Of a stretch of 64,000 bases of DNA, positions 4,754-40,932 are shown piece by piece. How positions within the stretch are numbered: position 1 is the stretch's first letter; the number at the start of each line of letters is the position of its first letter. A model generated the notes under the pieces. It did not search any database. It worked only from the letters and a program-made list of their open reading frames with translations, and was not told the origin of the DNA. Origin of the DNA: an uncultured Bacteroidia bacterium (GTDB taxonomy: Bacteria; Bacteroidota; Bacteroidia; Bacteroidales; Prolixibacteraceae); NCBI GenBank assembly GCA_903918045.1, contig CAIXCY010000014.1, positions 1 through 64,000 of the forward strand, given 5' to 3'. Both the position numbers and the translations under genes were made by a program.

Positions 4754-5395
4754 TTAGTTACAGCCGCAGCTTCCGCCTTTACCATCACTACAACTACCGG
4801 TTTCGCAGCTTTCCAGATTGTCTTCTGTATCTGAACAACCACAGCCACTTCCGCATCCGCCGCCTTGTTTCTCGCCACTTCCGCATCCGCCACTTCCGCA
4901 ACCGCAACCTCCACCGCTAAACATTACGCTTAGCTCCTCAGGAGTAGCATCACGAACCTCAAGTACCTCACCGGTAAAGTGAAGGTCCTCGCCTGCTAAG
5001 GGATGATTAAAGTCCATTTGAACCGTGTTTTCATCAACTGAAACAACAAGCCCTTCCATTCGCTGTCCACTTGTAGACATCATGGGTACACTATTCCCCG
5101 GAGCGATTAATTCTTCATCAATCTTACCGTCAACCATGAAAATATTTTTAGGGAGATCCACGATTGCCTCTTCATTAACTTCGCCATAGGCATCTACCGC
5201 AGGTATTGAAATTTCGAATGTATCATTTGCCTTCTTATTCAGAAGTGCATTTTCAAATGCCGGGAGCATCATGCCTGATCCGTAAAGAAATACAAGCGGA
5301 CTATCTTTCCCTGCTTTTTCAAAAACTTCACCCTCTTTACCGTCCAACTTTAATTCATAAGTGACGGAAACCATTTTATCTTTAGAAATTGTCAT
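4754..5395 (-). CDS. FKBP-type peptidyl-prolyl isomerase (SlyD-like) with Cys/Gly-rich C-terminal tail
   Basis: VTYELKLDGKEGEVFEKAGKDSPLVFLYGSGMMLPAFENALLNKKANDTFEISIP...; tail GGGCGCGSGGCGSGEKQGGGCGSGCGC... Confidence 0.9.
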   Translation of the reverse strand: MTISKDKMVSVTYELKLDGKEGEVFEKAGKDSPLVFLYGSGMMLPAFENALLNKKANDTFEISIPAVDAYGEVNEEAIVDLPKNIFMVDGKIDEELIAPGNSVPMMSTSGQRMEGLVVSVDENTVQMDFNHPLAGEDLHFTGEVLEVRDATPEELSVMFSGGGCGCGSGGCGSGEKQGGGCGSGCGCSDTEDNLESCETGSCSDGKGGSCGCN

Positions 5396-5557: not shown

Positions 5558-6319
5558 TTATTTAAGATTCGAAATGAAAGTCTCATACTGGAGGTCATCC
5601 AAACAGACATAGGCAGGGGTATTCATTCCGTAATCTCCATTATCGGATGAACTAAACCGAAAGGTCAATTTGTTGACTTTGCCTAATGCAGTAAGGTCGA
5701 CTACAGTCCATTTATCGACAATATAATCTTTAGAATTATCCGCAAAGCGGTAATCTGCAAGAAAAAAATCGAGTGATTTTACCGAATCTCCAGCCGCATT
5801 ATAACCAATTATTGTCATTTTAAACCAGTCTGGATCATTTCCTGTCAGGCCACCAAATTTCTTCGCAAAACTGGGATCTCCTTTTTTTATCGTTAAGGCA
5901 GTATAAGTAGAATTACAAACTTTTAAGCTTTTCACTAAATAAACAGAGTCATTAATAAATTTGGCAAATTCGTCTGCTCCAAAGGGTGGATAATATACTG
6001 CAAATTTATTATTTCCGTTGGAACTGTCAAAAACGCTGTATTGATTTGTATAATCAGAAGCTATAATATCATTTTTTTGGGAATAAGCGAAGCCATCCCA
6101 TGAACCGTAAGAGGAATTAAAATTATTCTGAAAGGTCATATCAGCCGATTGAAAGTTTCCTGATCTGTCTGAGCCATTCCAAAACAAGGCAGGTCCAATG
6201 GTCAGGTTTTCAAAATTTACTGTTTTAATTTGTGTGTAATTAATCTTTTCCTTTTTGCAAGCAGAAAATAGAATCAGGAGGAATAGGATTGCGAGACCAG
6301 AATTTTTAATTTTTTTCAT
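5558..6319 (-). CDS. DUF4465-like lipoprotein
   Basis: Lipobox LLILFSACKKEK; NFENLTIGPALFWNGSDRSGNFQSADMTFQNNFN..SWDGFAYSQKND pattern; lies downstream of the cobalamin riboswitch. Confidence 0.75.
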   Translation of the reverse strand: MKKIKNSGLAILFLLILFSACKKEKINYTQIKTVNFENLTIGPALFWNGSDRSGNFQSADMTFQNNFNSSYGSWDGFAYSQKNDIIASDYTNQYSVFDSSNGNNKFAVYYPPFGADEFAKFINDSVYLVKSLKVCNSTYTALTIKKGDPSFAKKFGGLTGNDPDWFKMTIIGYNAAGDSVKSLDFFLADYRFADNSKDYIVDKWTVVDLTALGKVNKLTFRFSSSDNGDYGMNTPAYVCLDDLQYETFISNLK

Positions 6320-6521
6320 TTTCTAAATTAATTGGATGTTCATTATTAAAAAAGGTTTTACGAAAACCTGTGATGCAATTGGCACACAGGCAATCTGAGA
6401 ATCTCTCCGCAAGGAAAGATCTAAAACAGGAGTCCATCGGTTCATTCAGACACCAACACTCAAGTATCCGATCGTTTCGACAGACAAACGACATTTTACA
6501 GCACGGACAAACTTTTTCCAT
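6306..6521 (-). CDS. Cysteine-rich CWC family protein
   Basis: MEKVCPCCKMSFVCRNDRILECWCLNEPM...DCLCANCITGF: CPxC...CWC...CxCxxC arrangement; 14-nt overlap with the DUF4465-like gene. Confidence 0.75.
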   Translation of the reverse strand: MEKVCPCCKMSFVCRNDRILECWCLNEPMDSCFRSFLAERFSDCLCANCITGFRKTFFNNEHPINLENEKN

Positions 6522-6639
6522 AATGGAATATTCCTGTTTTAATTTGCCGGCTTTCTTTAAATAGAGAAAATGAATAACAATGAATTGCAGTTCACTTTTG
6601 CTATTAGACCCGAAAGCAAAAAATAATATAGTGAATCTC

Positions 6640-6825
6640 GGCAGGTATTCTGGCTCGCCCTCCTTTTGATTGCCTTCCCATCCCTCCTACGAGGAACAGT
6701 GGCGTGTGGTTCAAAAAGTTTTTTAATAAGGCATACAGCTGCGGGTACAGCTCCGGTATTTAACCGGATTCCCTTTTCATTGGCCATCCCCGATAAAGGA
6801 CAGGCAATACCGAAAAACAGGTCAA
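6640..6825 (-). promoter_or_regulatory. Cobalamin (B12) riboswitch
   Basis: Minus strand reads AAAAGGGAATCCGGTTAAATACCGGAGCTGTACCCGCAGCTGT ... ACGCCACTGTTCC ... GGGAAGGC ... GAGCCAGAATACCTGCC, matching the conserved cobalamin riboswitch core and the 3' CCTGCC end. Confidence 0.93.
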
Positions 6826-7002
6826 AGGTAACTTATCTTAATTGGAAAATCCTAATATTTTTGGAAAATAAATCTTGCAAAATGACCAAATAAAATGATT
6901 AATTATTCGCTCAAAATATCACTTTATAATTTGTTAAATATGCAAATAGAACTATCGTGATTCTTAAATTGTAGAATTTTTCCTACTTTTAGTCCACAAT
7001 AA

Positions 7003-26970: not shown

Positions 26971-27465
26971 ATGGGATTAGTAATGCCGGAATTTGGGCTT
27001 TTCTTTTGGATGCTCATATCCTTTTCGATTTTGCTTATCATTCTTAAAAGGTTTGCCTGGGGACCAATTCTCCAGATGCTTTCTGAGAGGGAAAAGTTTA
27101 TTGAGGATGCTTTAAAGTCTGCCGAAAATGCCAAGGAAGAGATGGTAAATTTGCAAACCGGAAACGAAAAGATTTTAAAGAAAGCAATTTTGGAGCGCGA
27201 AATGATCATCAAAGAGGCGCGCGAACTCAAAACTTCGATTGTCAATGAGGCTCGTCATGAAGCTTCAGTCGAGGCTAATAAGGTAATGGAACATGCCAAG
27301 GCTGCCATTGAACGTGAACGTGCCGCTGCTATTGAAGAAATCAAAAATATGATTGCTAATTTTTCGGTTGATATTGCTGAGAAAATTCTGAAGGAGAAAC
27401 TGGCAGACGATAGCCGGCAAAAAGAGCTGATCCAAAATTACATTGATCAGATCAATCTCAATTAA
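26971..27465 (+). CDS. atpF: ATP synthase subunit b
   Basis: MGLVMPEFGLFFWMLISFSILLIILKRFAWGPILQML. Confidence 0.95.
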   Translation: MGLVMPEFGLFFWMLISFSILLIILKRFAWGPILQMLSEREKFIEDALKSAENAKEEMVNLQTGNEKILKKAILEREMIIKEARELKTSIVNEARHEASVEANKVMEHAKAAIERERAAAIEEIKNMIANFSVDIAEKILKEKLADDSRQKELIQNYIDQINLN

Positions 27466-27475
27466 TACAGGTTAA

Positions 27476-28021
27476 ATGGACGAAGGGAAAATTGCCGTTA
27501 GATATGCGAAAGCATTACTGGGTCTGGCCAAAGAGAAAGCGATTACAGAATTGGTGAGAACCGATATGGAAATGATTCAACATTTTTTTGATTTCGATCC
27601 CAGATTCAATAATGTACTTATAAGTCCGGTGATCAAAACGAAGGCCAAATTGCTATTTATTGAGGAGGTTTTTGTGAACCATACAAATCCGTTGACCTTC
27701 TCCTTCCTGAAGCTTTTGCATATAAATCACAGGGAAGCTTATTTAAAGAGCATTACCCGGATTTTTCTCGAGTCATACCGGAGAGAGGCCGGCTTTAAGA
27801 AGGCTAAACTAACAAGCGCTGTAGAAATTGATTCGTCAACAATCGATCAGTTCAAAACCTTCATCCGAAAACATTTTAAGTCAGAGGTTGACTTAACCAG
27901 TTCCGTGGATAAAAATCTTATTGGAGGATTCGTATTACAAGTTGAAGATCAGCAGATTGATGCCAGCGTATCGGCGAAATTGAAAAAGCTCAAAAGAGAA
28001 CTCCTGGAAAGCCAGGGATAA
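27476..28021 (+). CDS. atpH: ATP synthase subunit delta
   Basis: IAVRYAKALLGLAKEK...DKNLIGGFVLQVEDQQIDASVSAKLKKLKREL. Confidence 0.95.
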   Translation: MDEGKIAVRYAKALLGLAKEKAITELVRTDMEMIQHFFDFDPRFNNVLISPVIKTKAKLLFIEEVFVNHTNPLTFSFLKLLHINHREAYLKSITRIFLESYRREAGFKKAKLTSAVEIDSSTIDQFKTFIRKHFKSEVDLTSSVDKNLIGGFVLQVEDQQIDASVSAKLKKLKRELLESQG

Positions 28022-28056
28022 AAATATATAGAACAAAATAATTAAACGTAGATATT

Positions 28057-29637
28057 ATGGCTGGAATAAAACCTGCTGAAGTTTCCGAAATACTGAAAAA
28101 GCAGTTGGATGGTTTCAAAAGTGAAGCCGAATATGCCGAAATTGGAACCGTATTGCAAGTTGGTGATGGTATTGCCCGCGTGTACGGTTTATCAAATATT
28201 CAGTCAAACGAAATGGTTGAATTCAGCTCCGGGGTAATGGGAATCGTTCTTAACCTTGAGGAGGATAATGTTGGTTGCGTTCTGCTCGGTTCTTCAGAAC
28301 GAATTAAAGAGGGTGATGCAGTTAAGAGAACCAATAAAATTGCCTCTATCAACGTTGGAGAAGGACTTCTTGGACGTGTTATCAATACTTTGGGAGAACC
28401 CCTTGACGGCCGTGGTCCGATTACAGGAGAACTCTTTGAACTGCCACTTGAACGTAAGGCACCGGGCGTTATTTACCGTCAACCGGTAAAGGAACCCCTT
28501 CAAACCGGAATCAAGGCCATTGATGCGATGATCCCAATTGGTCGCGGGCAGCGGGAATTAATCATTGGCGACCGTCAGACTGGTAAGACCGCCATTGCCA
28601 TTGATACGATCATCAATCAGAAGGAATTTTACGAAAAAGGTGAACCTGTTTATTGCATCTATGTGGCAATCGGACAAAAAGGTTCTACTGTAGCCAATAT
28701 AGCTAAAACACTCGAGGAACATGGTGCAATGCCATACACTGTAATTGTGATGTCGACATCGTCGGATCCTGCAGCACTTCAGTTTTATGCACCATTTGCC
28801 GGTGCCGCAATTGGTGAATTCTTCAGAGATACGGGTCGCTCAGCATTAATCGTTTACGATGATTTATCGAAACAAGCTGTTGCATACCGTGAAGTTTCAT
28901 TGCTTTTGCGTCGCCCGCCTGGACGTGAAGCTTATCCGGGGGACGTTTTCTACCTTCACTCCCGTCTACTGGAACGTGCGGCAAAAATCAATACAAGTGA
29001 AGCCGTTGCCTCACAGATGAATGATGTACCTGATTCAATCCGTCATCTGTTAAAGGGTGGTGGATCGCTCACCGCACTTCCAATCATCGAAACACAGGAC
29101 GGCGACGTTTCTGCCTATATTCCTACTAACGTAATTTCGATCACTGACGGTCAGATCTTCCTTGAATCGAACCTTTTCAATTCGGGAATCAGGCCTGCTA
29201 TCAACGTAGGTATTTCAGTGTCGCGCGTTGGGGGAAATGCCCAAATCAAGACAATGAAAAAAGTTGCCGGTACACTGAAAATTGCTCAGGCCGAATTTCG
29301 TGAACTTGAAGCTTTCTCTAAATTTAGCTCAGATCTTGATCCTGCAACCAAGGCAGTGCTTGAAAAGGGAACCCGTAACCTTGAGATCCTGAAACAAAAA
29401 CAGTTTTCACCGGTCAAGGTTGAGAATCAAATCGCAATCCTTTATTGTGGGGTACATGGTTTACTTTCTGCGGTTCCAAAGCATTTGGTACAGGATTTTG
29501 AACTTGAATTCCTCGAGGTGCTTGAAGCACAACATAAGGAAACCCTTGCATCATTGCGCGGCGGTTCAATTTGCCACCTCGAAACAGATGTTCTTGAAAA
29601 AGTAGCCAAAGAAGTTTCAACAAAATATTCGGTTTAA
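28057..29637 (+). CDS. atpA: ATP synthase subunit alpha
   Basis: [68 protein letters not shown]. Confidence 0.98.
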
Positions 29638-29679
29638 ATAACTGATTTCAATCAATTAAGAGACAGATAAAACCAGATA

Positions 29680-30570
29680 ATGGCAAATTTAAAAGACATA
29701 CGGACCAGAATAGCCTCAGTGAAATCGACACAGCAGGTAACCAGCGCCATGAAGATGGTATCTGCTGCCAAGTTGCGCAAAGCACAGGATGCTATTATAC
29801 AAATGCGCCCCTATGCCGAAAAACTGAACGAAATTCTGACCAGTGTCAGCAGTAACCTCAGCTCTGATGTTGAGAATAAATATGCCGGGCGAAAAACGGA
29901 AGGACGTATCCTCATCATTGCGATTACATCAAACAGAGGTCTTTGCGGAGGCTTTAATTCTAATGTAGTTAAGAGAGTCTCCGAATTGGTTTCAACCACC
30001 TTCAGAGAACAGGCAGGACGGAAAAAAGTTGATGTTATTGCGGTCGGGAAAAAAGCTGTTGACGGACTTAAATCCAAAGGGATCATCGTTACAAACAGTT
30101 ACCTCGATATTTACGAGAAGCTAAGTTTCTTAACTGCTGGTGAAATTGCTCAATCGCTGATGGAAAGTTATTCAGCAGGTGATTATGACCGGGTTGAATT
30201 GGTTTATAATCAATTTAAAAATGCTGCCGTACAAAACCTCGTAAATGAACAGTTCTTGCCGGTTAGTGTCTCTATCAAGGATACAAAAGCCACAAAAAAA
30301 GCTTCGAATATATCCTATTTGTTTGAACCTTCAATGCAGGAAATAGTGGTTACAATTATTCCACAGTCACTGAAGATTCAGTTCTACAAAGCATTACTTG
30401 ATTCTGTGGCTGCAGAGCATGGAGCACGGATGACAGCAATGCACAAAGCAACAGACAATGCATTTGACCTGATAAAAGAGTTGAAGCTCAATTATAACAA
30501 GGCACGCCAGGCATCAATTACAAATGAAATCCTTGAAATTGTAAGTGGGGCCAATGCCATGAAGAGTTAA
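29680..30570 (+). CDS. atpG: ATP synthase subunit gamma
   Basis: MANLKDIRTRIASVKSTQQVTSAMKMVSAAKLRKAQ; ITSNRGLCGGFNSNV. Confidence 0.97.
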   Translation: MANLKDIRTRIASVKSTQQVTSAMKMVSAAKLRKAQDAIIQMRPYAEKLNEILTSVSSNLSSDVENKYAGRKTEGRILIIAITSNRGLCGGFNSNVVKRVSELVSTTFREQAGRKKVDVIAVGKKAVDGLKSKGIIVTNSYLDIYEKLSFLTAGEIAQSLMESYSAGDYDRVELVYNQFKNAAVQNLVNEQFLPVSVSIKDTKATKKASNISYLFEPSMQEIVVTIIPQSLKIQFYKALLDSVAAEHGARMTAMHKATDNAFDLIKELKLNYNKARQASITNEILEIVSGANAMKS

Positions 30571-30617
30571 AAAACACAACCAATTCGACAAATTACGAAA
30601 TAAAATATTTGCAATAA

Positions 30618-32147
<1,530 letters not shown>

Positions 32148-34262: not shown

Positions 34263-35663
<1,401 letters not shown>

Positions 35664-35686
35664 ATCAAACATTATAAGAATCAGCA

Positions 35687-36091
35687 ATGGAAACAAAGCT
35701 TATGAATCTGAAAATCCTACTGCCGTATCAGATATTTGCCGATCTGAAAGGGATTACGCGTATTGTAGCTGAAACATTGCAGGGATCCTTTGGATTACTG
35801 CCGCACCGTCTGGATTGCACTGCAGCCCTGGCACCCGGGATTTTAACTTATGAAACTGAAGAGGGAAAAGTAGTTTATATAGCCACCGACGAGGGAATTC
35901 TGGTTAAGGCTGGTGCAAATGTCCTCGTATCGGTCCGAAATGCCGTTGGAGGTGTGGACCTGGGCGATTTACACAAAACAGTCATTCAGGATTTCGAAAA
36001 TATGGATGAGCATGAAAAAAAAGTGCGTACCGTAATGGCCAAACTCGAACTGGGATTCATTCGCAGATTTGAGGAATTCCGTAAAAAATAA
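35687..36091 (+). CDS. atpC: N-ATPase subunit epsilon
   Basis: MNLKILLPYQIFADLKGITRIVAETLQGSFGLLPHRLDCTAALAPGILTYE. Confidence 0.9.
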   Translation: METKLMNLKILLPYQIFADLKGITRIVAETLQGSFGLLPHRLDCTAALAPGILTYETEEGKVVYIATDEGILVKAGANVLVSVRNAVGGVDLGDLHKTVIQDFENMDEHEKKVRTVMAKLELGFIRRFEEFRKK

Positions 36092-36099
36092 TCCTCAAA

Positions 36100-36420
36100 A
36101 TGAAACACGACGAAATCCAAAAGAATTTCAGACAAATTATCGGATCAAAAGAGAAACAAAAACTCATGGAGAAGCAAAAATCCAAACGTGGATTATTATT
36201 TGGCTTAGGAATGTTTGGACTCGTGGGTTGGTCGGTTACAGTCCCTACACTTCTTGGAGCTTTTCTGGGTATTTGGTTAGACAAGCAGTTTCCCGGCAAA
36301 CAATCGTGGACGCTTACATTTTTACTGATAGGATTAATAGTCGGATGCGTGAGTGCCTGGCATTGGCTGGCCAGCGAGGATAAGGATATCCATAAAAATA
36401 AGGAAGACAAAAATGAATGA
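36100..36420 (+). CDS. atpQ: N-ATPase AtpQ (AtpI-like) subunit
   Basis: LFGLGMFGLVGWSVTVPTLLGAFLGIWLDKQFPGKQSWTLTFLLIGLIVGCVSAWHWL. Confidence 0.88.
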   Translation: MKHDEIQKNFRQIIGSKEKQKLMEKQKSKRGLLFGLGMFGLVGWSVTVPTLLGAFLGIWLDKQFPGKQSWTLTFLLIGLIVGCVSAWHWLASEDKDIHKNKEDKNE

Positions 36421-36703
36421 GACGATGACAATTATTGGAGTATTAATCATAGGATTACTTCTGGGGATATTCTTTTTCGGCGGATTATGGTGGACAACCC
36501 AAAAAGGGATCCAGTCCAAATCGCCAGCTTTATGGTTTCTTGGAAGCCTAATTATACGGATGGCAATCACGATAACCGCATTTTATTATATTTCGCGTGA
36601 TCACTGGGACAGAGCACTGATCTGTCTGATAGGTTTTATTATCGCCCGAGGGATCATTATGCGATCGACAAAGGTTAAAGAAATTAATGAAACACAGCAA
36701 TAA
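36413..36703 (+). CDS. atpR: N-ATPase AtpR subunit
   Basis: MNETMTIIGVLIIGLLLGIFFFGGLWWTTQKGIQSKSPALWFLGSLIIRMAITITAFYYIS; 8-nt overlap with atpQ; start at 36413. Confidence 0.88.
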   Translation: MNETMTIIGVLIIGLLLGIFFFGGLWWTTQKGIQSKSPALWFLGSLIIRMAITITAFYYISRDHWDRALICLIGFIIARGIIMRSTKVKEINETQQ

Positions 36704-36715
36704 AGAATCAAGAAA

Positions 36716-37399
36716 ATGAGAATTAGTCCCGATGAAATGGTATTTTTTGAGTATGGTTTTGTAAAAATCAACTTTACAATTGTCACTACTTGGGCCATAA
36801 TGTTATTCATGGTGATTGGTTCGATCTTGGTCACCCGAAAACTGGTTATCAAAACTAAGATTTCCAGGTGGCAGAGTATTCTTGAAATGGTTGTAACCGG
36901 CATAAAAGAGCAGATTGAAGAGGTAGGATTGCACAAATCAAAGACCTATATCGGATTTTTGGGAACCCTGTTTTTGTTCCTTTTTACCTCTAACCTGCTT
37001 ACCATTCTGCCGGTCTATGAACCGCCCACAAGTTCACTCTCTACAACTGCAGCCCTGGCGGTATCTGTATTCTTTGCTGTTCCAGTTTTCAATATTATGG
37101 AACATGGAATATTAGACTACCTCAGGTCGTACGTAAAGCCATTGCCAATAATGCTTCCATTTCATATAATCAGTGAATTCTCACGTACCCTGGCTCTGGC
37201 AGTTCGTTTGTTCGGGAACATGATGAGCGGTGTAATAATTCTTGGTATCCTGATTACCATTACACCCCTGGTATTCCCGATCGTAATGACCGCCTTTGGC
37301 TTACTTACAGGTTCGGTTCAGTCCTATATATTTACAATCCTTGCAACGGTATTTATTGCCGCAGCGGCCAATGAGACAGAAACAGAGGTAAATACCTAA
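36716..37399 (+). CDS. atpB: N-ATPase subunit a
   Basis: RISPDEMVFFEYGFVKINFTIVTTWAIMLFMV; ISEFSRTLALAVRLFGNMMSG. Confidence 0.93.
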   Translation: MRISPDEMVFFEYGFVKINFTIVTTWAIMLFMVIGSILVTRKLVIKTKISRWQSILEMVVTGIKEQIEEVGLHKSKTYIGFLGTLFLFLFTSNLLTILPVYEPPTSSLSTTAALAVSVFFAVPVFNIMEHGILDYLRSYVKPLPIMLPFHIISEFSRTLALAVRLFGNMMSGVIILGILITITPLVFPIVMTAFGLLTGSVQSYIFTILATVFIAAAANETETEVNT

Positions 37400-37437
37400 A
37401 TATAATTGAATTAATAATTTAAAAGGAGGACAATCTT

Positions 37438-37719
37438 ATGGACAATATCACACTTATTGGAGCAGTTTCCATTCTAACTGCCGGTATTACAATGGCCATT
37501 GGAAGTATTGGCCCCGCTATGGGAGAAGCCAAGGCGGTAGTTGCTGCACTAACTTCCATCGCTCAGCAGCCTGATGCTGCATCAACAATAACTCGTACGC
37601 TATTCGTCGGGCTTGCAATGATCGAGTCGATGGCTATTTATTGTTTCGTTGTCTCAATGATTCTGCTTTTTGCCAATCCGTTTTGGAATTTCGTTATCAC
37701 AAAAGTTACCGGAGGCTGA
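37438..37719 (+). CDS. atpE: N-ATPase subunit c (Na+-type site)
   Basis: GSIGPAMGEAKAVVAALTSIAQQPDA..LFVGLAMIESMAIYCFVVSMILLFANPF. Confidence 0.94.
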   Translation: MDNITLIGAVSILTAGITMAIGSIGPAMGEAKAVVAALTSIAQQPDAASTITRTLFVGLAMIESMAIYCFVVSMILLFANPFWNFVITKVTGG

Positions 37720-37721
37720 AT

Positions 37722-38507
37722 ATGTTATTCGACTGGTTCACATTTGCTGCACAATTAGTTAATTTTCTGATTCTGGCCTGGCTCTTAAAACGTTTTCTGT
37801 TTAAGCCAATCCTGGAGGCTATTGACCAACGGGAGAAGCTAATTGCCAATCAATTACATGAAGCGGAAGAGAGCAAAGCGAATACGGGCCGGGAATTTGA
37901 ACGCTTTCAGCAAAAAAACAGCGAGTTTGATCGGCAACGAGGTGACCTTTTAACAAATGCCATTCTTGAAATTAATGCTGAACGACAAAAACTCATGGAA
38001 CAAACCCGGGTTGAAGTTGAATCCTTACGTTTGCGTTTACAGGAATCGTTGAGAAATGAACAGCTTAATGTGGGTTCTGAAATCATCCGGCGCACCCGTG
38101 AAGAGGTTTTTACTGTTGTACGCAAAACCCTGGATGACCTGGCCTCAGCTAATTTGGAGGAGCAGATGACCACTGTTTTTATAAAACAAATTAATGAATT
38201 AAATTCTGATCAATGGGGGATGCTGAATTCTGCCTTATGTAAACCTGGCGGTGAAATTTATGTGCGAAGTGCATTTGAAATGCCAGTAAGCCAGCAAATT
38301 GCCATTAAAAATGTGATCAATGGTAATTTTAAGCTGTTGGCCGATATTAAATTTGAAACTTCACCTCAATTTATCAGTGGTATTGAACTGATTACCAACG
38401 GATATAAAGTTTCCTGGAATATTGAGGATTATCTTATATCATTGGAAGCCAATATTACTGACCTATTGAATCAGCGGAGTGATTTAATGACTGAAAAGGT
38501 CTCTTAA
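37722..38507 (+). CDS. atpF: N-ATPase subunit b with delta-like C-terminal region
   Basis: [39 protein letters not shown]-terminal [53 protein letters not shown]; start at 37722. Confidence 0.92.
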
Positions 38508-38521
38508 CAGATTCATTTAAT

Positions 38522-40051
38522 ATGGAATCGATAAAATTGCAGAATCTTCTTGATCATACAATTGACGGAATAAGTCAGTCACTGGAGAACTTTAATCCTC
38601 AATTAACGACCAAAGAGGTAGGAATAATTACCTCCTTATCTACAGGAATAGTTAAAGTTTCAGGCGTTCCGGGTGTTGGATTTGAAGAGCTCTTGAAATT
38701 CCCGGGAGATTTGTATGGTATTGCTTTTAATATTGATGAAGAAGAAGTTGGAGTGGTTCTGCTTGGCGATTATTCCCATCTACAGGCAGGGGACGTCGTG
38801 GAGCGAACGGGTCGTGTGATGGATGTACCGGTTGGAGATTCCTTAATCGGCCGGGTAATTAATCCACTTGGAGAGCCACTGGACGAAAAAGGTACGCTTA
38901 TTTTCAGCCACCGACTGCCCATTGAGCGCCCCTCGCCCGCTATTGTTGACCGCGAACCGGTTATCGTACCCTTGCAAACAGGCTTAAAAGTTATAGATGC
39001 CCTTATTCCGGTAGGACGTGGTCAGCGTGAATTAATCATGGGTGACAGGCAAACCGGGAAGACAGCCATTGCGATAGACACCATTATTAATCAGCATGAT
39101 CAGAATGTATTATGCATCTATTGTGCCATTGGACAGCGTGCTGCAAGCGTCGCCAAAGTAGTGGCCGACCTTCGGGAGAAAGGAGCTATGGAATACACCA
39201 TCGTGATCGTGACGGAAGGGAATGATGCCCCGGGGTTAAATTTCATTGCCCCCTATGCTGCAACGAGTATAGGAGAATATTTTATGGAAAAGGGGAGAGA
39301 TGTTCTGATAGTTTATGATGATCTTACCCATCATGCCAGAGCTTACCGCGAAATATCCCTTTTATTACGTCGCCCACCCGGCCGTGAAGCCTTCCCAGGG
39401 GATATTTTCTATATTCACTCCCGGCTTTTGGAGAGGTCAACACATTTGTGCCGGGAGCTTGGAGGAGGTTCATTAACCGCGCTCCCTATTGTTGAAACCG
39501 AGGCTCAAAATATCTCGGCCTATATCCCGACAAACCTGATCTCGATTACCGATGGTCAGATCTACCTATCGCCTACGTTATTCGAACTTGGTGTACTTCC
39601 GGCAGTGGATGTCGGGATGTCGGTTTCAAGGGTAGGCGGGAAAGCGCAAAGACCTGCGTACCGCTCAGTAACAGGCGCTTTAAAACTGGCCTACTCTCAA
39701 TTTGAAGAATTGGAGACCTTTGCCAAATTCGGCACGAGGCTGGATGAGCATACTCGAAAGATAATCGCCCACGGCCGCCGCATAAGAGCTTGTCTGAAGC
39801 AACCGGCTTCGGCACCGATTACGCTGGCTGAACAAATCACAGTCCTGTTGGCGCTTACGAATGGTTATTTCGATGAAGTTCCCCTGGACAGAATGAAGGA
39901 GGCAGAACGCTCCTTACGCATAAAAGCAGCTGAACTTCCTGAAGATACCCGGAAACGATTTAATTCAACATTACCCTTCAGTGACGATGACCGAACGTTA
40001 ATCCTTCAACTGGCACTAAAGGCCCTTGAACCATTCACTGAACAATTATGA
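38522..40051 (+). CDS. atpA: N-ATPase subunit alpha
   Basis: [66 protein letters not shown]. Confidence 0.96.
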
Positions 40052-40932
40052 GCGATACACTTGAAAGCTTAAAACGAAAAATAAACGGTGCAACAGATCT
40101 CGAATCGGTTGTTCGTACCATGAAGGTTCTGGCAGCTTCAAATATCATTCAGTACGAAAAAGCAGTAATCTCATTGGCTGAATATTACAGGACAGTTGAA
40201 TTAGGATTATATGTCTGTTTTCAAAAAGCAGGAGTGATTAATTTTACAGACAAGAAATACTCAGACCACAGAGCCATCGGCGCGATTGTTTTTGGTTCTG
40301 ATCAGGGGCTCGTGGGGCAGTTTAATGATGTTCTTTCAGCCTATGTCTCAAATTTTCTTGCCAATTTACAAGGACCTAAACGAATTTGGGCTGTTGGTGA
40401 ACGGATTCAATCTCTATTGGAAGATGATAAATTATCCATATCTGGACTATTTTCAGTACCAAATTCGGTAAATACAATAACGCCTGTTATCGGTCAGATT
40501 CTGCTTGATTGTGAATCGGAACGGGAAAATGGGGAAATTTCACAACTCTACATTTTTCATAACAAGCCAAAACCAGGAGCTCTTTATGAACCAACAGTTC
40601 AGCGTCTTCTGCCGCTTGATGAAACCTGGTATCAAAGCGTAACTCAAATCAACTGGCCCACAAATTATATCCCGGAACCAATTAATGGTATTGCACCTAC
40701 TCTGCACGGAATTATCAGACAATATCTGTTTATTTCATTGTTCAGGGCATGTGCTGAATCACTCGCCAGTGAGAATGCAAGCAGGTTAGCCGCAATGCAA
40801 CGTGCCGAGAAAAATATTGACGAACTTCTTGAAGATCTGAATCGCTCTTTCCATCGTCTTCGTCAGTCTACAATCGATGAGGAATTGTTTGATGTAATTT
40901 CGGGCTCTGAGGCGTTGTTGGCGAAGAAATAA
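40048..40932 (+). CDS. atpG: N-ATPase subunit gamma
   Basis: [53 protein letters not shown]; 4-nt overlap with atpA. Confidence 0.93.

Follow-up and report, generated by a model that had tools for sequence, protein, structure and literature searches.

B12 binding by proteins of the DUF4465 family was published in 2025-26 (PMC13398666, PMC12751083), so the function of DUF4465 can no longer be treated as unknown. Eight divergent DUF4465 proteins bind B12 (PMC13398666), and two members from B. thetaiotaomicron, BtuJ1 and BtuJ2 (BT_1491 and BT_1957; IPR027828), bind it with high affinity and are encoded in riboswitch-regulated operons (PMC12751083). The Cys-rich CWC family (PF14375) has been met in a B12 setting in the cob operon of Sulfurospirillum, where a CWC gene lies between cbiA and the gene for precorrin-2 dehydrogenase (PMC7755780). 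Among the open-access papers searched, this was the only report bearing on a link of CWC (PF14375) or DUF5522 with a cobalamin regulon, and it is the one paper on which a CWC-B12 link outside Bacteroidota rests.

The locus analysed here lies in a window of 64 kb, by which we mean the whole stretch of DNA under analysis. Its DUF4465 protein has the family domain, a lipoprotein signal, riboswitch control and contact residues in common with BtuJ1 and BtuJ2, but it is encoded with CWC in a stand-alone operon, whereas the genes for BtuJ1 and BtuJ2 are found among btuB, btuG, btuH and btuFCD genes. As in loci 1-3 of B. thetaiotaomicron (btuB, btuG, btuH, btuJ, btuK and btuL), homologues of BtuB, BtuG, BtuH and BtuJ are under riboswitch control in this genome, although here the components come from two separate loci, with a CWC gene in addition. 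The Sulfurospirillum gene shares the family name and the B12 context with the window gene, but it belongs to a biosynthesis operon, and the gene described here to a riboswitch uptake operon. Riboswitch-controlled metE and nrdD isozymes follow the same regulatory logic, and CWC genes occur in such operons of other families; the window operon, in contrast, carries a putative B12 scavenger and no isozyme. The riboswitch and the lipoprotein are of known kinds, and the CWC gene is the new part.

The cobalamin riboswitch that the earlier note had read on the minus strand was confirmed by a covariance-model scan, in which RF00174 matched positions 6829-6623 (-) over its full length (model positions 1-189) with 101.5 bits and an E-value of 3.1e-24, against a gathering score of 31.5 bits; this was the sole Rfam match at gathering within the 64-kb window, and the model starts at 6829, compared with a feature end at 6825 in that note. 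The aptamer (6623-6829) is located about 100 nt 5' of the CWC-DUF4465 pair on the same strand, and a riboswitch was found 5' of the orthologous genes in all the same-genus loci examined. A promoter box of the TAnnTTTG type, the consensus of the Bacteroidetes -7 box, coincides with the riboswitch 5' edge (TACCTTTG, 6823-6830, -); such a box was positioned 0-1 nt from the riboswitch model start in 15/15 related DUF4465 loci examined.

The aptamer is followed by a conserved leader (6545-6622, -) with 43 invariant positions over 12 loci, which is a probable expression platform and includes the segment TGAACTGCAATTCATTGTTATTCATTTT (6594-6567, -). The leader segment CGGCA (6549-6545, -) is complementary to a UGCCG in the 3' end of the aptamer (6643-6639), and the two could pair 20-24 nt 5' of the ATG in most loci; the predicted fold of the window leader, in which the pairing is included, lay 2.3 sd below shuffles. 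Within the local leader hairpin no predicted pair showed changes on both sides, so that a leader structure and a switch mechanism based on UGCCG:CGGCA pairing are only suggested. Cobalamin binding by the riboswitch and repression of expression upon binding are predicted.

Open reading frames and Pfam matches agreed with the gene order previously described, that is, a Cys-rich CWC frame overlapping a DUF4465-like lipoprotein gene by 14 nt, followed by an FKBP gene. The CWC ORF (6521-6306, -) encodes a protein of 71 aa, and the DUF4465 ORF (6319-5558, -) a lipoprotein of 253 aa of the BtuJ family. The next gene downstream, for the FKBP (4754-5395, -), starts 162 nt after DUF4465, and since no TAnnTTTG promoter was seen in the gap, it might be co-transcribed with the operon; a chorismate synthase gene comes after it. 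The window FKBP has a Cys/Gly-rich C-terminal tail and is SlyD-like. Elsewhere in the window, two separate F-type ATPase clusters are found close together on the plus strand (26971-32147 and 34266-40932), the genes of the second being ordered as in an N-type (Na+-translocating-like) ATPase, as judged by eye from translated starts only.

Queries for btuB, btuG, btuF-like genes, cobU, cobT, cobS, cobC, metE, nrdA, nrdD and DUF6580 gave no match among the 57 non-overlapping window ORFs of at least 60 aa, and the DUF4465 query matched solely its own gene. Accordingly, no TonB receptor or ABC transporter genes of a btuB/btuFCD-type operon were found in the window locus. The earlier statement that no B12 transporter accompanies the locus was therefore borne out among the window ORFs, but it did not extend to the whole genome. 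In the assembly (5.36 Mb in 281 contigs, with a completeness of 98.8% and a contamination of 3.99%) a second cobalamin riboswitch was detected on contig C108, with a TAnnTTTG box 2 nt from the model start, ahead of three genes whose products are homologues of BtuH (7BIZ, E 2e-44), BtuB (8BMX, E 2e-122) and BtuG (8P97, E 2e-106). The transporter-free flanks are thus uninformative about the cell, and the reading of the locus as a stand-alone system without a transporter was rejected. The single FecCD permease gene of the genome (contig C11) was near neither cobalamin riboswitch. MetH was found in the genome and CobS was not, which fits an importer of B12.

The window lipoprotein matched PF14717 with 180.2 bits (cut-off 25) over positions 2-176 of 176, and its PDB matches were 9FCT, 9QPM, 9HMU and 9I2L (E 1.7e-23 to 1.5e-11). 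All six of the B12-contact residues checked were conserved (W74, Y90, Y139, N233, T234 and Y237, which correspond to W78, Y97, Y146, N241, T242 and Y245 of BtuJ1 in the PDB match alignment), including the HI-loop NTPxY motif with its contact Tyr, the DE-loop Tyr and the AB-loop Tyr. Binding of B12 by the window lipoprotein is what these features lead us to infer. The N-terminus read directly from the translation, MKKIKNSGLAILFLLILFSAC, contains the lipobox FSAC. An acidic signal after the lipid Cys is known for surface lipoproteins of Bacteroidetes, whereas the residues after the lipobox Cys are KKEK, without an acidic signal, and the window protein differs from BtuJ1 and BtuJ2 in having no clear acidic surface-export motif at this position; a surface location is plausible. 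The proposal that the lipoprotein handles B12 agrees with the family match and the contact residues, and for the family this function is already established by the published B12 binding (PMC13398666, PMC12751083).

The CWC protein matched PF14375 (Cys_rich_CWC) with 31 bits, against a cut-off of 24, and has all eight Cys in the pattern CxxC..C..CxC..CxCxxC. The eight Cys were retained in each intact same-genus CWC copy aligned, and the gene shows purifying selection (pN averaging 0.18 vs 0.58 for pS, with pN < pS in 55/55 pairs). No signal peptide was visible in the sequence, so the protein is probably cytosolic. The AlphaFold2 model (mean pLDDT 82) is a small fold with two short strands and helices, for which Foldseek returned no PDB neighbour (best E 5). 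Searching PDB sequences with a profile brought up no more than weak matches of the zinc-finger type. A Cys4 metal site is likely.

Conservation of the locus was compared among 61 related genomes. A riboswitch followed after about 100 nt by CWC and by an abutting or overlapping DUF4465 gene was present in twelve loci from eleven species of the genus, the window included, and the same order was observed in G023, which belongs to another genus of the same family; in this genome (L113) an FKBP-like gene is likewise situated downstream of DUF4465 on the same strand. Three genomes of the genus had kept the DUF4465 gene in combination with a CWC frame lacking key cysteines (G014), with only a remnant of CWC (G005) or with no CWC (G007), and the more distant relatives inspected had a riboswitch followed by DUF4465 without CWC. 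The co-occurrence of CWC and DUF4465 behind riboswitches, which the earlier note had proposed to survey, held for the twelve loci of the genus and G023, but not for the more distant relatives inspected, nor for G005 and G007.

To place the CWC gene in a wider context, PF14375 was surveyed at the level of the class (289 genomes) and of the phylum (396 genomes), flanks were fetched, and operons were called from strand and spacing. CWC genes were located downstream of a cobalamin riboswitch, on the same strand, in operons of differing content from at least 10 families. Uptake genes preceded CWC in several of them: riboswitch-btuB-btuG-CWC in G258, G452 and G602, riboswitch-TonB receptor-CWC in G284 and, with genes in between, in G267 (where a fluoride riboswitch lies near the B12 locus, L209:13363-13428, +), and riboswitch-TonB receptor-CWC-cobC in G688. 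Other arrangements were riboswitch-DUF6580-btuF-like-CWC-cobU...cobT (G562), riboswitch-metE-CWC (G446, G699 and G480), riboswitch-nrdD-CWC-nrdG (G036), riboswitch-CWC-biotin carboxylase-carboxyltransferase (CWC-pcc; G167), and riboswitch-CWC-secreted protein, alone (G101) or followed by cobT-cobS-cobC (G175). Rfam confirmed ten of the ten riboswitches in the set fetched with ±7 kb. CWC had comparable neighbours, with no riboswitch in the fetched stretch, in G290 (cobT-cobS-CWC), G314 (DUF6580-CWC...cobT-cobS-cobC), G280 (DUF6580-CWC) and G345 (metE upstream of CWC), and in G297 a riboswitch was placed further downstream of CWC-cobU...cobS-cobC.

In 10/40 CWC loci the 6 kb upstream of the gene contained a riboswitch on the same strand, against 0.07 expected (P 2e-19; chance rate from about 150 riboswitch matches in the 61 genomes), a frequency that is biased, as the loci were fetched partly by context and several folB cases were left out. 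The class survey gave at least 6/53 riboswitch-linked CWC loci (P 6e-10), most of the others having been scanned to 1.5 kb only, and this lower bound is still far above chance. The operon orientation, with the riboswitch upstream on the same strand, was found in 14/15 riboswitch-bearing CWC loci outside the locus type of the window (P 4e-8), leaving out G003, which has riboswitches on both sides. These statistics count genes and not independent origins, the genomes being related and several families contributing more than one case.

In a weakly resolved tree of 114 CWC sequences (62 columns), nearly all the B12-linked members fell in one group, and a folB-linked group stood apart from it. An exclusive association of CWC with B12 was rejected on account of this folB-linked subgroup; the other neighbours recorded for CWC were folB (28 sequences), lipA (9) and nrdA (6). 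A frame of 171 aa in G200 (L222:6989-7504, -) contains a FolB and a CWC domain and is likely a fusion, which supports a real folB link of the other CWC subgroup. A CWC paralogue on contig C108 (G000:C108:48533-48664; L043, L103) follows lipA and an oxidoreductase gene, with no riboswitch beside it, and a lipA-linked copy is common to many species of the genus. A further subgroup (L131, L145, L138, L152, L232 and L136) has a second, C-terminal Cys-rich domain, which Pfam scans of L131 and L232 assigned to DUF5522. In L131, L138, L145 and L152 the CWC gene adjoins one for a secreted protein, which ends in a T9SS sorting tail in the cases scanned; these proteins may form another secreted family related to B12. 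Another family met repeatedly next to CWC in B12 operons is DUF6580 (L226:5403-5984, L227:6254-6790, L208:7140-7721 and L216:7166-7735), which consists of membrane proteins and may have a part in transport.

The distribution of CWC bears on its relation to the lipoprotein. A CWC specific to DUF4465 was rejected, because many CWC operons are without DUF4465 and the distant riboswitch-DUF4465 loci are without CWC. For the same kind of reason, the notion that CWC is a physical partner of the lipoprotein was not sustained: it has no visible signal peptide, it occurs in B12 operons that have no DUF4465, and it has been lost in congeners whose DUF4465 is retained. The description of the CWC gene as a B12-responsive candidate, in contrast, gained support from the riboswitch linkage in the other genomes. 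As the family is found in B12-switched operons of many lineages, it probably has an as yet unrecognised place in B12 metabolism. A more specific reading, to which we give about an even chance, is that riboswitch-linked CWC is an unrecognised intracellular component of cobamide uptake and use in Bacteroidota, made at low B12 and handling either the cobamide that enters or a metal that B12-related enzymes need.

That CWC acts directly on intracellular cobamide, for instance as a thiol carrier or as a reductant or upper-ligand-removing helper for newly imported cobalamin or cobinamide salvage, is possible, though rather unlikely. The linkage with cobU, cobT, cobS and cobC in G562, G314, G290, G688, G175 and G297 argues for it, together with the Sulfurospirillum cob operon gene (PMC7755780), the probable cytosolic location and the eight conserved Cys in CxxC, CxC and CxCxxC motifs; on the other side, some B12 operons of the phylum are without CWC, as are the distant riboswitch-DUF4465 loci.

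Two further explanations appear slightly less probable. According to one, which we regard as unlikely, CWC is a translational leader or passenger, a short, generic zinc-binding ORF that stands first by chance, couples translation to the lipoprotein gene and has no role in B12 physiology. Its overlap or abutment with DUF4465 in the genus, its loss from some congeners that keep the lipoprotein, and the CWC genes that adjoin folB, lipA and nrdA are in keeping with this. However, in other families CWC stands last or in the middle of B12 operons as different as btuB-btuG-CWC, metE-CWC and btuF-like-CWC-cobU, positions unlikely for a leader; the gene shows purifying selection, its eight Cys are kept in the intact same-genus copies aligned, and the linkage itself argues against a pure passenger. 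The other explanation, which we consider doubtful, is that CWC serves as a metallochaperone or zinc-economy protein for the B12-independent backup enzymes MetE and NrdD and shares the riboswitch because these enzymes are made at low B12. MetE and class III RNR have zinc sites, and riboswitch-metE-CWC (G446, G699 and G480) and riboswitch-nrdD-CWC-nrdG (G036) are in favour of this, but many CWC genes are found solely with btuB, btuG, cobT, cobS, cobC or cobU, and the window operon has neither metE nor nrdD. Finally, a ligand other than B12 for the window lipoprotein, for which its low identity to the assayed DUF4465 members could be adduced, is highly improbable in view of the riboswitch control, the 180-bit family match and the six contact residues kept.

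Taken together, the account that we favour with good confidence is that of a small B12-repressed operon in a B12-importing Bacteroidota species, whose lipoprotein would feed BtuB-BtuG-BtuH in trans and whose CWC would be a member of the cobalamin regulon. Under cobalamin limitation the riboswitch would permit expression of CWC and the lipoprotein, presumably from one transcript. The lipoprotein, of the DUF4465/BtuJ type, would catch B12 outside the inner membrane and pass it to the BtuB-BtuG-BtuH proteins encoded behind the other cobalamin riboswitch, and the B12 brought in would serve MetH. CWC would itself be a full member of the Bacteroidota cobalamin regulon, most likely as a metal-binding helper (of the Cys4 Zn type) needed in B12-poor cells, and its target may be the cobamide being imported or enzymes related to B12.

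Acquisition of B12 shapes competition among Bacteroidota, and the roles of BtuB, BtuG, BtuH, BtuJ and BtuK at the surface and in the periplasm are being worked out, whereas the cytosolic steps that follow import are not. CWC is a concrete candidate for this cytosolic gap, being small, conserved, riboswitch-controlled and placed beside uptake, salvage and backup genes, and PF14375, a domain of unknown function, thereby gains a functional context across the phylum.
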